Source of the DNA: a virus | Length of the DNA stretch: 22,140 bases | Strand: one strand, 5' to 3' | IMG/VR virus record: IMGVR_UViG_3300044678_002130 | Span: 1-22,140 of that record | Shown: positions 2,579 through 8,622 of the stretch, piece by piece | How positions within the stretch are numbered: position 1 is the first letter of the stretch | How the letters are laid out: each line of letters starts with the position of its first letter | The notes under the pieces: generated by a model | Databases searched by the model: none | The model's input: the letters and a program-made list of their open reading frames with translations, nothing else | Told to the model about the DNA's origin: nothing | Made by a program: the position numbers and the translations under genes

Positions 2579-2768
2579 GCCCCAAGAACCGTGCCACGGC
2601 GACCCCGCAAGGTCGAAATCGGGCCCGAAAGGTCGCGTTTCGGGCTCGAACGGGTCCTCCCCCGGGGGGGGCGGGTCGCGGGACCCGCGCAGCCACGGCA
2701 TTTCTCTAGCGCCAGCAAGTCGTTGCACCGCATTGCGTTACCCAGCCAGCCCCAAACCGCCGTCCTCG
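2579..2768 (+). other. Non-coding region with hairpins before the small terminase, cos-like candidate
   Basis: There is no convincing gene here; a 44-codon GTG frame (2575-2709) looks incidental. Hairpin 1: GCCCGAAA (2623-2630) pairs with TTTCGGGC (2638-2645), an 8-bp stem with a 7-base loop. Then comes a C5G8 tract (2659-2671). Hairpin 2: GCGGGTC (2671-2677) pairs with GACCCGC (2682-2688), a 7-bp stem with a 4-base loop. The stretch from ~2700 to 2768 is less G+C-rich than its surroundings. Phages with lambda-type terminases often cut at a cos site just upstream of the small terminase gene, so this is the best place in the window for one. No cleavage sequence can be named from sequence alone. 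Confidence 0.4.
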
Positions 2769-3452
2769 ATGCCGCCGAACCGCACCAAATCCGCACCCGT
2801 TGGCACCAAAACCACGGCGAAACGCACGGAATCGACGGGCACTCCGCCGAAATCCGCCAAGGGTCCGAATGCCCGGAACCAGCGGGAACCACTTGGGAAC
2901 CACCGGGCACCGGTGCGCGCGCCGTCGGCCGCGCCGGAGGGCGCGCGGGCAGCTGACGAGCTGTCGGTGACCGAGGTGGCTGACCGGCTGGGGATTTCCT
3001 ACCAGGCGGTTGGGGTGTGGGCGGCCAAGCCGGGCGCGCCGGTGCGGTCGGTCAAGAGTCGGGTGTGGTGCAAGTGGCCGGCGTTCGCGCGGTGGCGCGA
3101 GCAGCAGCTGGTGGACACCGCGCGGCGGGAGGCCACGCCGACGGTCAGCCTAGACGAGGCCCGGACGCGGAAGGCGCTGGCCGAGGCCGAGCTGGCGGAG
3201 ATCGAGCTGGCGCGGGCGCGGGGGGAGGTGGTGGCGCTGTCGGACTACGAGGCGGCGCTGGCGCGGATTCTGGACCGGCTGGCGGCGCGGCTGCGGGCGC
3301 TGCCGGTGCGGCTGCTGCACTTGGGTCCCGAGGTCGAGGCCGCGGCGGAGGCCGAGGCGGAAAAAGTCGTGGAGGAACTGCACGCATGGAACGAAGACGT
3401 CGTCGACGAAACCCCAGCGCAGGGATCACAGCAGACTACGGAGGCAGCATGA
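2769..3452 (+). CDS. terS: Terminase small subunit (Nu1-like DNA packaging protein)
   Basis: This subunit would recognise the packaging site and hand the DNA to the large terminase. The ATG start gives 227 residues. Residues 1-60 are low complexity (Lys/Thr/Pro/Ala). A helix-turn-helix follows at ~65-110 (ELSVTEVADRLGISYQAVGV, then VWCKWPAFARW), as in lambda Nu1. Then comes the typical long charged helix (ARTRKALAEAELAEIELARA, with RGEVVALSDYE after it) and a helical region ending in an acidic tail, probably for oligomerisation. A TTG 36 bases upstream (2733) is an alternative start, and neither candidate has a good Shine-Dalgarno. The 5' end differs in base composition from the rest and carries GGAACCA repeats. 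Assignment as small terminase is firm by domain order, although the large terminase lies 3.2 kb away. Confidence 0.78.
   Translation: MPPNRTKSAPVGTKTTAKRTESTGTPPKSAKGPNARNQREPLGNHRAPVRAPSAAPEGARAADELSVTEVADRLGISYQAVGVWAAKPGAPVRSVKSRVWCKWPAFARWREQQLVDTARREATPTVSLDEARTRKALAEAELAEIELARARGEVVALSDYEAALARILDRLAARLRALPVRLLHLGPEVEAAAEAEAEKVVEELHAWNEDVVDETPAQGSQQTTEAA
2875..2911 (+). repeat. Three GGAACCA repeats at helical spacing, plus one degenerate copy
   Basis: GGAACCA occurs at 2875-2881, 2885-2891 and 2896-2902, with a related GGCACC at 2906-2911. Start-to-start distances are 10, 11 and 10 bases, so all copies face the same side of the helix. They lie within the low-complexity 5' part of the small terminase gene. 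Several phages hold terminase binding sites (pac or cosB elements) in or beside that gene, so these may be binding sites. This is inference. Confidence 0.35.
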
Positions 3453-3718
3453 GCACAGCGGGGGAGGGGAAGCCGGGGGCGTCTGTCCTGCGGCCGATGG
3501 TGTACCAGGCGCGGCACGCGCTGGTGGTGGAGAACGCGGTCCGGTGGTGGGAGTCGCGGCGCCCCGAGGGCTGGACGGAGGAGGAGCACATCCGGATGCC
3601 GGAGGCGGGGACGGTCGGGCGCGAGCAGTTTCTGCTGGCGGACGCGGTGGCGCAGCTGGTGCGGAGCTACCGTCGGGAGGCGGGGCACGAGGCAACTTGG
3701 AAGGGGGTGGTCGCGTGA
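3449..3718 (+). CDS. Hypothetical small phage protein
   Basis: An 89-residue protein of unknown function whose ATG overlaps the stop of the small terminase (ATGA), with GGAGG at 3440-3444 as ribosome binding site. After a short flexible start (MSTAGEGKPGAS) it appears mainly helical, with a tryptophan pair (VRWWESRRPEGWTEEEHIR) and an Arg-rich C-terminal helix (LVRSYRREAGHEATW). No signal peptide, membrane segment or metal-binding motif is visible. Tight coupling to terS suggests co-expression with the packaging genes but gives no function. It is the first of ten short genes between the two terminase genes. Confidence 0.6.
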   Translation: MSTAGEGKPGASVLRPMVYQARHALVVENAVRWWESRRPEGWTEEEHIRMPEAGTVGREQFLLADAVAQLVRSYRREAGHEATWKGVVA

Positions 3719-3951
3719 CGGTTTCCGCGCATGACCCGGTGAACCACCCGTCACACTACGTCGGGACGATCGAGTGCATCGACGCCATCCAGCAGGTGCT
3801 GGGAGCGGACGGGTTCGCGGCCTACTGCCGGGGGAACGCCCTCAAGTACCTGTGGCGGGCCGGCCACAAGACGCCCGGCGCCTACGGGTTCCGGGAGGAT
3901 CTGGAGAAGGCGGAATGGTACCTGAGCAAGCTGCTGGAGGTGATTCCGTGA
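3715..3951 (+). CDS. DUF3310 domain protein
   Basis: A 78-residue protein that is almost entirely one DUF3310 domain. It shows the family pattern: NHPSHY (residues 10-15), ECIDAI (~20-25), a Gly-Asn-Ala-x-Lys-Tyr-Leu-Trp-Arg motif (~45-53), Lys at ~57, then DLEKAEWYLSKLLEVI at the end. DUF3310 proteins are small, common in phage genomes, and of unestablished biochemical function; some are annotated as nucleotide kinase-like. The GTG start at 3715 overlaps the previous stop (GTGA), and its own stop overlaps the next GTG, so it belongs to one translational unit. Family recognition is confident; function is not. Confidence 0.85.
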   Translation: MTVSAHDPVNHPSHYVGTIECIDAIQQVLGADGFAAYCRGNALKYLWRAGHKTPGAYGFREDLEKAEWYLSKLLEVIP

Positions 3952-4460
3952 CTGATGCGATGAAGTCGCGGGCTGTAATCACCGTGCTGGCCTGCGGGGT
4001 TGTGCTCATGGCAGCAGAGATCGTGCTGAATGCACCGCACAATACGCTGGACCTGTTGACGCTTGTCTTAGCGCTTTTGCTGCTCTCGGCAGCATTGGGT
4101 GCCTTTCTTAGTGCTAATGCTGCCCAGAGCAGCATCGGTCGCCTTCCCACTACTTGCGAGGTTGTAATGAGTAACGCGGAAAAACACCTGGCCCTGCTGG
4201 GCCTTCGCGTACGCGATCGAGTGTCCGGCATCGATGGCGTGGTCACGTCGGTGTGCTTTGACCTGTACGGCTGTATTCAAGCTGCTGTCCATCGCGGGCT
4301 CGACAAGGACGGGAGGCTTCATGACATGCAATGGTACGACATCGCGCGACTCCTCCCGCTGACCACGGTTCCGGTTATGGAGCAGCCTAACTTTGTGAGC
4401 GGGCAAGTAGCCGAAGGGGGCAAAGGCCCCGCCGAAAGGCCCAACTTTTTCAAGCCCTGA
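3948..4460 (+). CDS. Two-helix membrane protein fused to a conserved phage domain
   Basis: The GTG start overlaps the DUF3310 stop and gives 170 residues. Two hydrophobic helices lie at about residues 8-27 (AVITVLACGVVLMAAEIVL) and 34-56 (LDLLTLVLALLLLSAALGAF), separated by NAPHNT. From residue 74 a soluble domain begins with MSNAEKHLALLGLRVRDRV, followed by a Gly-Val-Val-Thr-Ser / Asp-Leu-Tyr-Gly-Cys-Ile motif and WYDIARLLPL. It ends in a linear tail with EQPNF and AEGGKGPAE. I recall this soluble domain as a free-standing small protein in other phages. An in-frame ATG at 4167 with GCGAGG (4156-4161) 5 bases upstream could make it alone (97 residues). DNA of the membrane part is less G+C-rich than its neighbours. 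Function is unknown; a holin-like role for the membrane part is possible but unsupported. Confidence 0.55.
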   Translation: MTDAMKSRAVITVLACGVVLMAAEIVLNAPHNTLDLLTLVLALLLLSAALGAFLSANAAQSSIGRLPTTCEVVMSNAEKHLALLGLRVRDRVSGIDGVVTSVCFDLYGCIQAAVHRGLDKDGRLHDMQWYDIARLLPLTTVPVMEQPNFVSGQVAEGGKGPAERPNFFKP

Positions 4461-4478: not shown

Positions 4479-4811
4479 ATGGCTGACACGACGAGGCCCG
4501 GCGACCCGGCAGACAAAGCGGCCGACGGCGCGTTCGGCGGCGTGACCTCGCACCGCGCGGGGTACGGCGACAAACTGCAGCGCGTCGAGGACTGGCTGCG
4601 TCGTCACCCCACCGCCACGTTGGCGAGCGGGGAGGGGGCGGCGCTGCTGCAGGAGATCGACCGGCTGCGTGCAGAGCTAGCAAAGACCAAACCTATAGCA
4701 GACGCCGCCGTAGCGTACTGCGACGCATTTTTCGGACCTGGTGGTTCCCCTGAACAGAGAAAGGCCGCCTCGGACGCATTATTTTCCTCCGTCGACGCCG
4801 CGCATGAGTGA
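4479..4811 (+). CDS. Hypothetical protein, paralogue A1 of a duplicated cassette
   Basis: A 110-residue protein with a good ribosome binding site (GGAGGAAA, 4467-4474) ahead of its ATG. The N-terminal ~45 residues are polar and flexible. A helix follows (LQEIDRLRAELAKTKPIADA), then AAVAYCDAFF (~residues 76-85), and it ends ALFSSVDAAHE. The C-terminal part is homologous to the protein at 5524-5751: 18 of 19 residues from RLRAELAK through AAVAY agree, while most third codon positions differ. I do not recognise the family. The likely fold is helical, perhaps a small oligomerising protein. It overlaps the next gene by 8 bases. Confidence 0.6.
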   Translation: MADTTRPGDPADKAADGAFGGVTSHRAGYGDKLQRVEDWLRRHPTATLASGEGAALLQEIDRLRAELAKTKPIADAAVAYCDAFFGPGGSPEQRKAASDALFSSVDAAHE

Positions 4812-5085
4812 CAACGCAAGGATATTTGGCGCGACCGCTCTACACGCCGTACTGGCAGAGTTTTCACGCGGTGGCGGCCTCCATGTCGCGCGGTATCACG
4901 ACACCGTCGCTATGGCTGATGAAATCGTGCGCCTCCGTGCCGCCATCGACCGGGTGCGGGCGCTGCACGCGTCTGTCGAAATTGGTTTTGGCCCAATATG
5001 CGATGAGTGCAGCAGCGCAAGCGACGGCTGGATTGTGCCCTACCCCTGCCCCACCCTCCGCGCCCTTGACGGGGAGGGCGCATGA
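4804..5085 (+). CDS. Hypothetical Cys-containing small protein, cassette member B1
   Basis: A 93-residue protein with three parts. The first is a helical N-terminus (ARIFGATALHAVLAEFSRGG). The second is a segment with MADEIVRLRAAIDRVRALHA that shares its first nine residues with the gene at 5748-6032. The third is a C-terminal motif with CDEC (~residues 66-69) and a later Pro-Cys-Pro-Thr before LRALDG. The CxxC plus a third Cys suggests a small metal-binding or redox knuckle with an incomplete ligand set. Proteins ending in a Cys motif followed by PCPTLRALDG are familiar to me from actinobacterial phages and genomes, which is a weak host hint. The start is the ATG 8 bases inside the previous gene. 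Function unknown. Confidence 0.58.
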   Translation: MSDNARIFGATALHAVLAEFSRGGGLHVARYHDTVAMADEIVRLRAAIDRVRALHASVEIGFGPICDECSSASDGWIVPYPCPTLRALDGEGA

Positions 5086-5327
5086 TGACGTCCGCGTTGC
5101 AACTTGCGACCGCAGCGGTGATGGGCGGGCTGGCCGTGAAGGCCGCCCAATTCCTCAGCGCCAAGAGAAAGGCGGCGCAGGATAGGGAAGCGGAGTTGGC
5201 CATCATGCGTGGCAACATCCGCACGCTGGAGACATTTCAGCGCAATATCCGGCGGGACATCCAAGAACTGCGGCGCGACCTGAGTGCGCGGCAAAGCAGC
5301 GCAACGCCATCACAGGAGAACGCATGA
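5082..5327 (+). CDS. Small single-pass membrane protein with coiled coil
   Basis: An 81-residue protein starting MMTSALQLATAAVMGGLAVK. The segment ~4-25 is hydrophobic and can form one membrane helix. Residues ~28-70 are a charged helix (AKRKAAQDREAELAIMRGNI, then RRDIQELRRDL) likely to form a coiled coil, followed by a short polar tail. The start overlaps the previous stop (ATGATGA; ATG at 5082, with an alternative at 5085) behind a GGAGGGCGCATGA start cassette. The layout, an N-terminal membrane anchor plus a cytoplasmic or periplasmic coiled coil, is seen in small phage lysis accessory proteins, but nothing here proves such a role. Confidence 0.58.
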   Translation: MMTSALQLATAAVMGGLAVKAAQFLSAKRKAAQDREAELAIMRGNIRTLETFQRNIRRDIQELRRDLSARQSSATPSQENA

Positions 5328-5527
5328 TCGACGCCTACATCGTGCGCGACCCGCAAGGGCGCGTGCTGGCGGTGAGCGTGGAAGGCTACATGGACGCGCT
5401 GCGAATTGCGGAGAATGGCGGCTGGTTGCCGCGCCGCGCCATTCAAGAACTTGGGCATCAGTTCGCAGTGAGCAAGCGAGGCAGCAGTAACGGTTACACA
5501 CTCAAGCATGAGCAGGTGGCGCTGTGA
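5324..5527 (+). CDS. Hypothetical 67-residue protein
   Basis: A small soluble protein starting MIDAYIVRDPQGRVLAVSVE, which looks like a beta hairpin. A helix follows (MDALRIAENGGWLPRRAIQE), then the end HQFAVSKRGSSNGYTLKHEQ. No known motif is recognised. Its ATG overlaps the stop of the preceding gene (ATGA) and is preceded by GGAGAACGC, one of four near-identical start regions in this cluster. Its stop overlaps the GTG of the next gene. Tight overlaps at both ends and a good start site support it being real. Confidence 0.55.
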   Translation: MIDAYIVRDPQGRVLAVSVEGYMDALRIAENGGWLPRRAIQELGHQFAVSKRGSSNGYTLKHEQVAL

Positions 5528-5751
5528 TCCGCAGCGGTGACCGCATCCCCGAGGCCACAATGCAAGCCGAGAACCAACGGCTGCGCGCCGAGCTGGCCAA
5601 GGCAAAGCCCATCGCCGACGCCGCTGTGGCCTACTACACGGCGTTCATCGACCAGCGCGACTACGGCGACACGGTCGACCAGACGTGGGAGGCGCTGTTC
5701 GCCGCCGTCCACGCCGCATATCCCGAGCTGGGTTCCAAGGAGAGCGCATGA
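5524..5751 (+). CDS. Hypothetical protein, paralogue A2 of the duplicated cassette
   Basis: A 75-residue protein with a GTG start overlapping the previous stop (GTGA). Residues ~14-45 (QAENQRLRAELAKAKPIADA, then AAVAYYTAF) match the corresponding part of the protein at 4479-4811 almost exactly, and the ends also correspond (ALFAAVHAAYPE against ALFSSVDAAHE). It lacks the ~45-residue flexible N-terminus of that paralogue. In the shared 19 codons only one amino acid changes while most third bases differ, so the protein sequence appears to be under selection. The family is not recognised. The likely structure is two or three helices. Confidence 0.6.
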   Translation: MIRSGDRIPEATMQAENQRLRAELAKAKPIADAAVAYYTAFIDQRDYGDTVDQTWEALFAAVHAAYPELGSKESA

Positions 5752-6032
5752 CACGAGATGAGGTGCTGGAGGAATTCGGGTACTATGCCGCAGGGAGCTA
5801 CGCTCAGGAGGACCTTGTGATGAAAAAGATGGCCGACGAAATCGTCCGCCTTCGCACCGGCACGCCCCGGGTGCTGGATGCCCTTCAGGCTCCGGACCGT
5901 GAGACCGTGGAGGCCGCGCTGGAAGCGGAGTGGGCGCATGGTCGGGCCGAGCCGGACGCCACCAGGCGGACGAGCGCACGAGCGGCCCTCATCGGCGTGG
6001 CGCGGCACCTCCGGGAGCGACTCGGGCTGTGA
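5748..6032 (+). CDS. Hypothetical protein, cassette member B2
   Basis: A 94-residue, mostly helical protein starting MTRDEVLEEFGYYAAGSYAQ. The segment MADEIVRLR (~residues 28-36) is shared with the gene at 4804-5085, where the four base changes in the common coding stretch are all synonymous. Downstream it differs. In place of the Cys motif it has an acidic/Ala-rich helix (VEAALEAEWAHGRAEPDATR) and an Arg-rich end (RTSARAALIGVARHLRERLG). The ATG overlaps the previous stop (ATGA) with GGAGAGCGC upstream, and the stop overlaps the next GTG. Function unknown. Confidence 0.58.
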   Translation: MTRDEVLEEFGYYAAGSYAQEDLVMKKMADEIVRLRTGTPRVLDALQAPDRETVEAALEAEWAHGRAEPDATRRTSARAALIGVARHLRERLGL

Positions 6033-6667
6033 CGCCGTCCCTGACGCTGGAGGAAATCGGCGAGGTGCTCAGGCACGCGCGGCGCGCCCGGGGGCTGACC
6101 CAAACCCAAGCGGCGGAGCTGGCTGGGATCGGCCTCCGCCTTTGGGTCGAGGTGGAGACCGGGAAGCGGCACGTGTCGATCACCAACCTGCTGGCGATGC
6201 TCCGGGTGGTCCGGGTGGAAATGCGGCTGGTGGACGACGGCGCGGAGCCGTGGCCACCGGCCGAGTCGGGGCTGCAGCCGCCCGCGCCCGCTCCGGCACC
6301 AGCAGCCGAACCGCTGCCGGAGCCCGCGCGTGCCGTCCGGTCCGGCCAGCGGATCGACACCGGGACCGGTGCCGCCCGCCGCCGGCTGACGCTGGAGGAG
6401 GCGCAGGGCGGCGGCCTGCCGACCCCGTTCACCGCGGAGGAGTGGGCCGCCATGGCGGGGGCCAGCACGCCGCGCACCCCGCCCCCGGCGCCACCAGCTC
6501 AGCCCAAGGGCAAGGCCAAGCCGGTCGCGCACCAGAGCCCGCAGCTGCGCGCGCTGTCGCTGCTGGCCTCCGGGATGAGCACCTACCGGGTGGCCAGCGT
6601 CATGCAGCTGCCGTTCGACGTGGTCCACCGCTGGGCGCTGGCCGCCCGGGAAGCTGCTGCCGCGTGA
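6029..6667 (+). CDS. XRE-family helix-turn-helix protein with a second C-terminal HTH
   Basis: A 212-residue protein from a GTG that overlaps the previous stop. Residues ~6-68 form an XRE/HTH_3 domain (LTLEEIGEVLRHARRARGLT, then QTQAAELAGIG, VEVETGKRHVS and ITNLLAMLRVV). The form, with a beta extension after the last helix (VEMRLVDD), resembles HipB-like antitoxins. A long Pro/Ala-rich linker (~72-165) follows. The C-terminal ~35 residues (LRALSLLASGMSTYRVASVM, then FDVVHRW) look like a second, resolvase-type helix-turn-helix. It overlaps the large terminase start (GTGA), the usual place of a small terminase, but the protein at 2769-3452 fits that role better. It may be a regulator or a packaging accessory. 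No toxin partner is visible nearby. Confidence 0.65.
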   Translation: MTPSLTLEEIGEVLRHARRARGLTQTQAAELAGIGLRLWVEVETGKRHVSITNLLAMLRVVRVEMRLVDDGAEPWPPAESGLQPPAPAPAPAAEPLPEPARAVRSGQRIDTGTGAARRRLTLEEAQGGGLPTPFTAEEWAAMAGASTPRTPPPAPPAQPKGKAKPVAHQSPQLRALSLLASGMSTYRVASVMQLPFDVVHRWALAAREAAAA

Positions 6668-8622
6668 CCACGCACCCCCTCGGCCTTGCCGCCATGAACC
6701 GGGTGACCCGGGAGCGGTTCCGGCGCCACTGCCGGCCGATCCCGCGGCTGTCCATGTCCCGCTGGGCGGAGCGGTACCGGGTGCTCTCCCCCGAGGCGAC
6801 CGCTCAGCACGGCCCGTGGCAGAACAGCGTGGTGCCGTACCTGGGCGACATCATGGACGCCATCTCCGACCGGGAGACGCAGGAGATCGTCCTGGTGAGC
6901 CCCTCGCAGGCCGGCAAGTCGGAGGCCCTGCTGAACGCCATCGGGTTCTTCATCCACCAGGAGCCGAGCTCCATCCTCGTGGTCCAGCCGACCACGGAGA
7001 CGGGGGAGAGTTTCAGCAAGGACCGCATCGCGCCCATGCTCCGGGATGCCCCAGCGCTGCGGCCGCTGGTGGCCCCGGCCCGGTCCCGGGACTCCAATAA
7101 CACCATCCTGAGCAAGCAGTACCCCGGGGGCCAGCTGGACATCGTGGGCGCCAACGCCCCCTCCGGGCTGGCCATGCGCCCCAAGCGGGTGGTCCTCCTC
7201 GATGAGCGGGACCGGCACCCCCGGTCGGCTGGGACGGAGGGGGACGTCAAGGCGATCGCCCGCGCGCGCACCCGGTCGTTCGGCCGCCGCCGGAAGATCG
7301 TCGAGGTAAGCTCGCCCACGTCGGCGGAGGAGAGCCTGATCTGGCCGAGCTACCTCGAGGGGACGCAGGAGGTGTACGAAATCCCGTGCCCGCACTGTCA
7401 GACCCATCAGGTGCCGGAGTTCGAGCAGCTCCGGTGGGAGCTGGACGAGGCCGGGCGCGTGGTGCCGGCGTCGGTGGTGCTGCGGTGCGCCGGGTGCGGG
7501 GAGGGCATCTCCGCCCGGGAGCGGGGGGCCATGCTGCGGGCCGGCCGCTGGCGGGCGACCGCCGAGCCCCGGGTGCCGCACAAGCGGACGTTCCACCTGA
7601 CCGGGCTGGTGGCGGCGTTCGGAAGCTGGGAGGAGCTGGCGCAGGAGTTCGTGACGGCCAACGGGCAGGCCGACCAGGCGATCCGGGCCGAGATGCTGCG
7701 CGCCTTCTTCAACACCGCGCTGGGACTCCTGTACCGCGACCAGTCCGCGGAGACCGTCAAGAGCGCGCTGGTGGCCCGCGCGCTCCCGTACTCTCCCGAC
7801 GGCAGCTGGCAGGTCCCGCAGCAGGTCGGCGTGCTGACGGCCGGCGTGGACATCCAGCACGACCGCGCCGAGGTGGTCGTCCGGGGGTGGGGCGCCGGGG
7901 AGGAGTCCTGGCTGATCGCGCGCGCCGTGCTCCGGGGCGATGCGTTCCAGCCGTCGTTCTGGACGCAGCTGGAGGAGTGGCGCAGCCGCAAGGAATGGCG
8001 GCACGAGTCCGGGGCCACGTTGGGGATCCGGGCCATGTGCATCGACGCCTCCGACGGCGCCGTGGCGAAGTCCGTCTATGAGTACGCCGCCCCCCGGCTG
8101 GGCGCTGGGGTGTTTGCCATCAAGGGGCATGGGAGCCCGACCGCCCCGATGACGCCAACCAAGCCGACCAAGGTCAAGCCGGGGCGGCTCTACCTGCTGG
8201 GGGTCCACGCCATCATGGAGCGCCTGTACCGCCGCCTCGGGATGACCTCACCCGGCCCCGGCTACCTCCACCTCAACGAGTACGCCGGGGAGACGCCGCC
8301 CGACGGCGTGCCGGCGGACTACGTGCAGCAGCTGACGGCCATGGAGCGCAAGCGGGACGAGAAGACGCGGAAGTACCGGTACGTGGCGCGCAAGGGCGTC
8401 CGGAACGAGGTGGCCGACGCCGAGACCTACGCCTACGCCGCGCTGCTGCTGGGCCCCGTGCCGCGCGACCTGCTGGCCCAGGAGGTGGTGCGCGTGAACG
8501 CCCAGGGCGCGGCGGCGCGGCAGCGGCGGGCCACCCCGGATTCGGAGCCCGTGCCGACCCCGGCCCCGGTGCCTAGGAAGACGAGCACGTGGCTTCCCTC
8601 CCGCGGCCGGGGGTGGCGGTGA
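6664..8622 (+). CDS. terL: Terminase large subunit, lambda GpA family
   Basis: The packaging motor and nuclease: it cuts concatemeric DNA and drives it into the procapsid by ATP hydrolysis. The 652 residues match the usual GpA length. The ATPase half has Walker A SPSQAGKS (79-86) and a Walker B-like strand VVLLDERDRHP with D180/E181. A zinc-ribbon-like pair follows (CPHC at 242-245 and CAGC at 275-278), typical of this family. The nuclease half has GVDIQHD (D396) and CIDASDG (D461, D464) as likely metal ligands, with DAETYAYAA near the end. The C-terminal ~60 residues are Pro/Ala/Arg-rich and probably contact the portal. The GTG start overlaps the previous stop; ATG at 6694 is an alternative that keeps all domains. 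Confidence 0.95.
   Translation: MTTHPLGLAAMNRVTRERFRRHCRPIPRLSMSRWAERYRVLSPEATAQHGPWQNSVVPYLGDIMDAISDRETQEIVLVSPSQAGKSEALLNAIGFFIHQEPSSILVVQPTTETGESFSKDRIAPMLRDAPALRPLVAPARSRDSNNTILSKQYPGGQLDIVGANAPSGLAMRPKRVVLLDERDRHPRSAGTEGDVKAIARARTRSFGRRRKIVEVSSPTSAEESLIWPSYLEGTQEVYEIPCPHCQTHQVPEFEQLRWELDEAGRVVPASVVLRCAGCGEGISARERGAMLRAGRWRATAEPRVPHKRTFHLTGLVAAFGSWEELAQEFVTANGQADQAIRAEMLRAFFNTALGLLYRDQSAETVKSALVARALPYSPDGSWQVPQQVGVLTAGVDIQHDRAEVVVRGWGAGEESWLIARAVLRGDAFQPSFWTQLEEWRSRKEWRHESGATLGIRAMCIDASDGAVAKSVYEYAAPRLGAGVFAIKGHGSPTAPMTPTKPTKVKPGRLYLLGVHAIMERLYRRLGMTSPGPGYLHLNEYAGETPPDGVPADYVQQLTAMERKRDEKTRKYRYVARKGVRNEVADAETYAYAALLLGPVPRDLLAQEVVRVNAQGAAARQRRATPDSEPVPTPAPVPRKTSTWLPSRGRGWR

Follow-up and report, generated by a model that had tools for sequence, protein, structure and literature searches.

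Four small genes lie close together in the window, the whole stretch of 22,140 nucleotides analysed here, and their partial likeness raises the question of how they arose. They are named A1 (4479-4811), B1 (4804-5085), A2 (5524-5751) and B2 (5748-6032; all window positions). An earlier note had placed four open reading frames at these coordinates and had read them as a diverged duplication of a two-gene cassette. We found all four frames there, and the short shared segments that it reported were reproduced. The 19-codon core of the A genes (4662-4718 versus 5578-5634) has 18 of 19 residues in common, the exception being T versus A, with 12 of 19 third bases different. In the nonamer of the B genes (4912-4938 versus 5829-5855) all nine residues agree and five of the nine codons differ, all of them synonymously.

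Both pairs are alike over part of their length only. A1 and A2 align over 56 residues with 50% identity (E 5.6e-13), and this likeness is confined to the C-terminal halves (residues 54-109 of A1 and 11-66 of A2). The C-halves gave a Smith-Waterman z of 13.0, and the N-halves are unrelated (z 1.3). The pair scores 112, where the best of 5000 shuffles reached 59; after masking of the linker RLRAELA the score was 76 and the best of 5000 shuffles 45. Since the masked score still beats the shuffles, the likeness is more than that of a common helix. A low-complexity helix as its cause was rejected by this test, and the objection which the earlier note had raised against itself, that the shared segments might be common low-complexity helices, is contradicted for the A pair. 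The "matching ends" it described hold for the A pair insofar as ALFxxVxAA recurs, and A2 extends further by PELGSKESA. A whole-record search of the window yielded no copies of A beyond A1 and A2. For B1 and B2 the common part is essentially the nine residues MADEIVRLR alone. The score with this nonamer was reached by 0 of 1000 shuffles; once it is removed, the N-halves show no likeness (z 0.84, score reached by 214 of 1000 shuffles), and the C-halves fall into different clusters, C1 and C3. Neither pair is alike over its full length, as both would be after the duplication of a two-gene cassette. What is shared is the back half of A and the linker that ends the front half of B, the other halves being unrelated within the window. 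The parts of the region are listed here, with front-half clusters named N, back-half clusters named C and related loci on other contigs given L numbers.

4479-4661, plus strand: front half of A1, an N1 module (PGDPADKAADGAFGG...TLASGEG..) by its N1 cluster; GC3 0.90.
4641-4682, plus strand: coiled-coil linker of A1 (EIDRLRAELA), a module joint, with the end of DNA similarity and a GC3 change point.
4677-4811, plus strand: back half of A1, a C2 module (KTKPIADAAVAY...ALFSSVDAAHE) common to A2 and L003 1657-1863; GC3 0.53.
4804-4911, plus strand: front half of B1 (MSDNARIFGATALHAVLAEF...), outside every N cluster.
4912-4971, plus strand: linker of B1 (MADEIVRLRAAIDRVRALH), joint J1, a DNA island common to C1 genes.
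4972-5086, plus strand: back half of B1, a C1 module (CxxC...YPCPTLRALDGEGA), with a phrog_23623 match, an AF2 model and the J2 DNA island.
5040-5086, plus strand: joint J2, which ends the back half of B1 and contains an SD-like GGGGAGG and the ATGA at which the next gene starts.
5324-5527, plus strand: gene D, with conserved ends and a variable middle; similarity at both ends alone.
5524-5559, plus strand: front of A2, the start of an unrelated gene (IRSGDRIP) and a recent recombination joint (5551-5559), where DNA similarity switches.
5560-5751, plus strand: linker and back half of A2, a C2 module; 90% identical to the L003/L004 protein, dN/dS 0.23.
5748-5855, plus strand: front half of B2, an N3 module by its N3 cluster, ending in the MADEIVRLR linker.
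5856-6032, plus strand: back half of B2, a C3 module by its C3 cluster.

The front half of B1 weakly resembles the front half of L031 1395-1649 through VLAxF...MADxIV. The linker island of B1 is 82-100% identical to the C1 genes of L003, L008, L009, L011, L013, L016, L017 and L031. The DNA similarity of gene D to L007, L013, L016 and L019 is limited to 5314-5389 and 5490-5550. Its ends, MIDAYIVRDPQGRV and GYTLKHEQVAL, are kept across phages and its middle varies, a behaviour like that of the module genes beside it; L019 has two tandem copies.

Relatives of these halves were found in other phages in different combinations. Viral-contig scans with A2 and A1 gave L003/L004 and L005-L009, and the loci from such scans numbered 14 for the C1-containing alignment, 3 for C2, 4 for N3/B2 and 9 for N1, several of them on the same contigs. 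N1 HMM matches occurred in 13 of 17 records, 2 of 14 places being weak, and a genome scan found C1 relatives in Streptosporangium and Rhodococcus only. We then took 30 genes, drawn from the window and from 14 further loci, split them at points set by hand, cut out the linker and compared the halves by Smith-Waterman z. Excluded from this set were L004 and L021 (almost the same as L003 and L019), the frames of L020 and L028, and genes lacking a linker. The front clusters comprised N1 (11 genes), N3 (4), N5 (3), N2 (3) and N8 (3), and the back clusters C1 (19), C2 (3), C3 (3) and C4 (3). Members of N3 are B2 of the window, its L003 counterpart, L011b and L032c; members of C3 are B2, the same L003 gene and L031 2532-2888. 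The N2 front module (CGCGEVEDDNGEYVKYADYQKLL) occurs in L007 (3904-4155), L016 (3914-4204) and L017 (3914-4174). For the L016 protein there is a weak match to phrog_3592 (E 0.0014), a Lar-like PHROG for restriction alleviation; this may hint at a counter-defence function.

The front and back clusters cross among these genes. N1 fronts are paired with C1 (8 genes), C4 (2) and C2 (A1 alone), N8 fronts with C1, C3 and C4, and N3 fronts with C3 (2), C1 (1) and one unclustered back half. Conversely, the C1 back half stands behind at least five unrelated N-halves. The front half of A1 is found before a B1-type back half in L003, L007, L008, L009, L011 and L019 and before a C4 back half in L031 and L032, and the front half of B2 precedes C1 in L011. 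When a pair was called alike on one half at z >= 7 with z < 4 on the other, 30 of 435 gene pairs were alike in front alone and 127 of 435 behind alone. A1 and the first L003 gene (L003a) gave z 48.4 for the N-halves and -0.5 for the C-halves. A homologous fragment common to otherwise unrelated proteins, which is the mark of a domain mosaic, was found in both A1/A2 and A1/L003a. One phage, L031 (contig IMGVR_UViG_3300037502_003122), carries N1-C4, N8-C1 and N8-C3 genes together, the last two with the same front half within one genome. The back half of L032c looks C4-like by eye and did not cluster at z 7. We think that L013a, which is cut by the contig end, joins N1 through a spacer common with L011a.

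The positions at which the halves switch were read from the DNA itself. In a blastn comparison of the window with the 14 loci, the similarity of A1 to the N1 genes of eight contigs stops at 4669-4681, within the linker codons. GC3 falls from 0.90 in the front half of A1 to 0.53 in the back half, and a change-point scan placed the change at 4668 (permutation p 0.0002). Two DNA islands, J1 (4912/4918-4970) and J2 (5040-5086), recur among the C1 genes, with a variable part between them. On its left side A2 matches L007, L013, L016 and L019 up to 5548-5550, a stretch that takes in the end of gene D and the opening codons of a different gene, and on its right side it matches L003 at 96% from 5560. 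These opening codons also begin a segment inside the HTH gene of the window (6336-6454, RSGQRIDTGTGAARRRLT...EEWAAM), which is the start of a free-standing gene in L007, L011, L013, L016, L017 and L019. Over longer distances the window is 98% identical to L003 at 2681-3719 and 96% at 5560-7000; between 3719 and 5560 mainly N1 and short linker pieces are common. A DUF3310 gene of the window (3715-3951, Pfam E 1.9e-17) is missing at the corresponding place in L003. The protein of the window at 3954-4460 has a GC3 of 0.66, below that of its neighbours, and matches phrog_37639 (E 2.4e-28, function unknown).

A comparable switch was seen between L016 and L017. They are 97% identical over 176 bp ending just past the linker, and dS within this one gene is 0.049 in the front half and 0.784 in the back half. 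Both this contrast and the A2 joint at 5551-5559, with its 96% flank identity to L003, indicate recent exchange. In an alignment test that is independent of the cut halves and was counted without L024/L025, the alignment ended inside the linker or up to 5 residues from it in 19 of 30 front-alike pairs (0.20 expected) and started there in 60 of 102 back-alike pairs (0.24 expected). Breakpoints at the linker are therefore enriched, not exclusive.

At the level of codons the joints are homologous. Among C1 genes of different contigs, identical residues were encoded by the same codon in 67% of cases in J1, 55% in the middle and 69% in J2, compared with 42-49% expected overall from pooled codon use and about 42-44% for the joints. 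Because codon identity exceeds expectation, the joints are homologous and not convergent. The joint codon identity equals that of the N1 module (70%), and a special DNA-level constraint on the joints was accordingly rejected. Two comparisons had a dS near 2: the 56 codons common to A1 and A2 (NG86 dN/dS 0.20, dS saturated) and B1/B2 as a whole (0.31); the B nonamer has zero amino-acid change and saturated dS. The other values were 0.23 for A2/L003, 0.46 for B2/L003, 0.32 for B2 and the C3 gene of L031, 0.17-0.31 for N1 pairs, 0.22-0.44 for C1 pairs and 0.44 for N2 pairs. All unsaturated values (0.17-0.46) are below 1. The old divergence under protein-level selection that had been proposed for the A and B genes is supported, and the neutral evolution in homologues which would have spoken against it was not seen.

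The best local DNA alignment within the window is one block (4653-4970 versus 5569-5890) that runs from the A linker over the stop/start overlap to the B linker. Its score of 108 compares with a maximum of 60 in 200 codon shuffles, and both its ends are strong and its middle is weak. We take the linker-to-linker likeness as a single block to be suggestive; such a block may have been copied or imported. Duplication within the phage lineage by unequal exchange at J1, with no import, would account for the spacing of the matched cores (250 bp in the first copy, 251 bp in the second) and for the order of A back half, stop/start and B linker that is kept in both copies, and L003/L004 hold the block of the second copy at 90% protein identity. 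The block nevertheless aligns poorly in its middle, and synonymous saturation and GC3 point to a diverged source for the first copy. Because GC3 of the two C2 copies differs (0.53 in the shared segment of A1 versus 0.88 in A2), import from a diverged phage is favoured over duplication in place, and we regard the latter as rather unlikely.

We consider it less likely still that an old tandem duplication of the whole cassette took place, after which A lost its original front and B its original back, either by replacement or by divergence past recognition. The same order, the same stop/start coupling and the single block alignment would be expected from it. The unshared halves, however, are not alike, and the A1 front, B1 back and B2 back match genes elsewhere, where they are paired with different partners; cross combinations of halves already exist in other phages. 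The B pair depends on nine residues, 7 of the 18 identical residues in the shared core use the same codon, which is the saturated level, and the C2 copies differ in GC3 as described above. Of the diverged duplication proposed earlier, the divergence and the selection are supported and the cassette, in the form proposed, is not.

The joints are short repeats prone to mis-joining, and the A1 joint (N1-C2) is known from this one contig only, as would be the case in a chimeric metagenome assembly. However, the same array is present in L003 and L004, and likewise in L019 and L021, pairs of separate records that come from different datasets; the joints are in frame with coupled neighbours and the combinations recur across many contigs, which makes such an artefact very improbable. 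Matches by chance or between convergent coiled-coil helices are scarcely credible: degenerate patterns did match 463 and 118 stretches with only 3 and 4 confirmed relatives, but A1/A2 remains significant with the linker masked, codon identity at the joints is well above expectation and the joints show identity at the DNA level.

Most likely, A1, B1, A2 and B2 belong to an array of phage genes that are very small, are coupled in translation and have interchangeable front and back modules, recombined at J1 and J2. The analysis establishes the module combinations, the switch positions, the codon-level homology of the joints and the purifying selection; modules were probably exchanged within genes, at linkers and stop/start joints, by ordinary phage recombination. 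J1, the short shared DNA encoding the coiled-coil linker (ExxRLRAxI), would be the first kind of recombination site. The second would be J2, shared DNA that comprises the codons of the C-terminal tail, the ribosome-binding site and the start of the next gene, which overlaps. Stops lie within NTGA, able to overlap a following start, in 29 of 30 genes, and 19 of the 30 carry an SD-like string in their last codons by a loose pattern; J2 is therefore plausibly both coding and regulatory. An exchange between two J1 sites would, in a single step and with both frames kept, give one gene a new back half and its downstream neighbour a new front half, which would explain why the copies in the window resemble each other only from linker to linker.

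Single-strand annealing recombination of the ERF/RecT type may have made these exchanges. Among C1 genes that differ in their front module, 122 pairs were compared: stretches of 23 bp or more without a mismatch were present within J1 in 14 pairs, within J2 in 23 and within the part between in 1, and the median exact run in J1 was only 11 bp. According to De Paepe et al. 2014 (PMC3945230), the shortest segment that allows pairing is 23-27 bp for Red-beta and 31-34 for RecA, and Erf and RecT work efficiently at 78% identity. As in the relaxed recombination by Rad52-like recombinases described there, short diverged homology would suffice, and ERF (5 of 17 records) or RecT (2 of 17) was matched in 7 of 17 records. 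In contrast to that work, in which longer homologous segments were exchanged between lambda and prophages, half-genes would be exchanged here at linkers, as read from sequence. The window record gave no match to ERF or RecT, and 10 of 17 records, all possibly fragments, contain neither; the recombination gene found in the window is RusA-like alone (1546-1965). In the Arthrobacter phage Shoya a C1-like match is followed, about 0.6 kb downstream, by an ERF gene. A dedicated diversity enzyme (diversity-generating retroelement or invertase) was rejected, as reverse transcriptase PF00078 and serine recombinase PF00239 were found in 0 of 17 records, which may be fragments, while positive controls matched.

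Residues 13-93 of B1 match phrog_23623 (E 6.6e-9, HMM), and B1 also matches PHROG 38849 (E 1.2e-5); neither entry carries a functional annotation or identifies C1 as a module that is attached to unrelated fronts. The AF2 model of B1 (mean pLDDT 82) shows a helix at 4-21 with low confidence, a long helix at 27-54 that contains the linker, a hairpin and short helices, with block means of pLDDT 93-96 over residues 41-90. All 19 rows of the C1 alignment have the same residue in one His and two Cys columns (one of the latter is the PC of PCPT), and the other Cys of CxxC is not present in all. C1 (CxxC...PCPT) is possibly metal-binding; a zinc-binding treble-clef or ribbon domain, in which conserved Cys/His ligands sit in a knuckle-plus-helix fold, would be a candidate. 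C1 had no fold match in the PDB at E <= 0.001, and no relative there by sequence profile (best E 1.1). A second look by VIA-align covered 17 chains and mostly residues 1-58, so that its outcome does not argue for a new fold, and the nearest models in a viral structure library were uncharacterised actinophage proteins (best E 2e-3). The A1 model is mainly helical and of low confidence (mean pLDDT 72).

No Pfam family scored above its cut-off for A1, B1, A2, B2, C or D. Among annotated phages, tblastn with A1 and B1 found no match at E 0.01, B2 and A2 had only weak matches at E 10, and C4 had no match at E 10. C1-like tails occur in the Arthrobacter, Gordonia and Mycobacterium phage isolates examined, all annotated as hypothetical at the match. 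The terminase of the window is less than 60% identical to all 758 matched phage records. The linker may form an oligomerising stalk, and the array proteins may be small accessory factors against host or rival targets. On architecture only, we tentatively suggest that they could be small oligomeric accessory proteins with separable binding halves, a less than even chance in our judgement.

Front and back domains are known to recombine between small viral proteins of DNA viruses in the KilA-N/Bro/antirepressor system, whose members are regulators with known domains. The front/back shuffling described here is similar, and Pfam shows no such domain in A1, B1, A2 or B2. Smug et al. 2023 (PMC10684548) defined domain mosaicism in phage proteins, with receptor-binding proteins, endolysins and replication proteins as hotspots and with accessory proteins and proteins of unknown function as a likely reservoir beyond that study. 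Our arrays resemble that mosaicism in that fragments are common to otherwise unrelated phage proteins and in-frame swaps are ongoing. They differ from the hotspots named there, since they consist of orphans of about 60-150 aa, joined at a recurring coiled-coil linker and a stop/start joint. Within the openly available literature searched, no paper on arrays of this type was found. Half-gene shuffling at linkers in tiny phage genes is a variant of this already known phage domain mosaicism, and it is a better account of the locus than cassette duplication. It is doubtful whether the arrays are in addition a standing generator resembling exon shuffling, in which J1 and J2 would be kept because recombinases swap half-genes in frame and thereby make new proteins directed against hosts or defences.

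For the majority of small phage genes no function is known, and they look like orphans. The A and B arrays warn that whole-protein clustering of small proteins mixes unrelated halves. If many orphans are assorted half-gene modules at recurring linkers, their families would be decomposable, annotatable and testable module by module. If this holds true, the recombination that creates new phage proteins would be directly measurable at defined joints of 20-50 bp.
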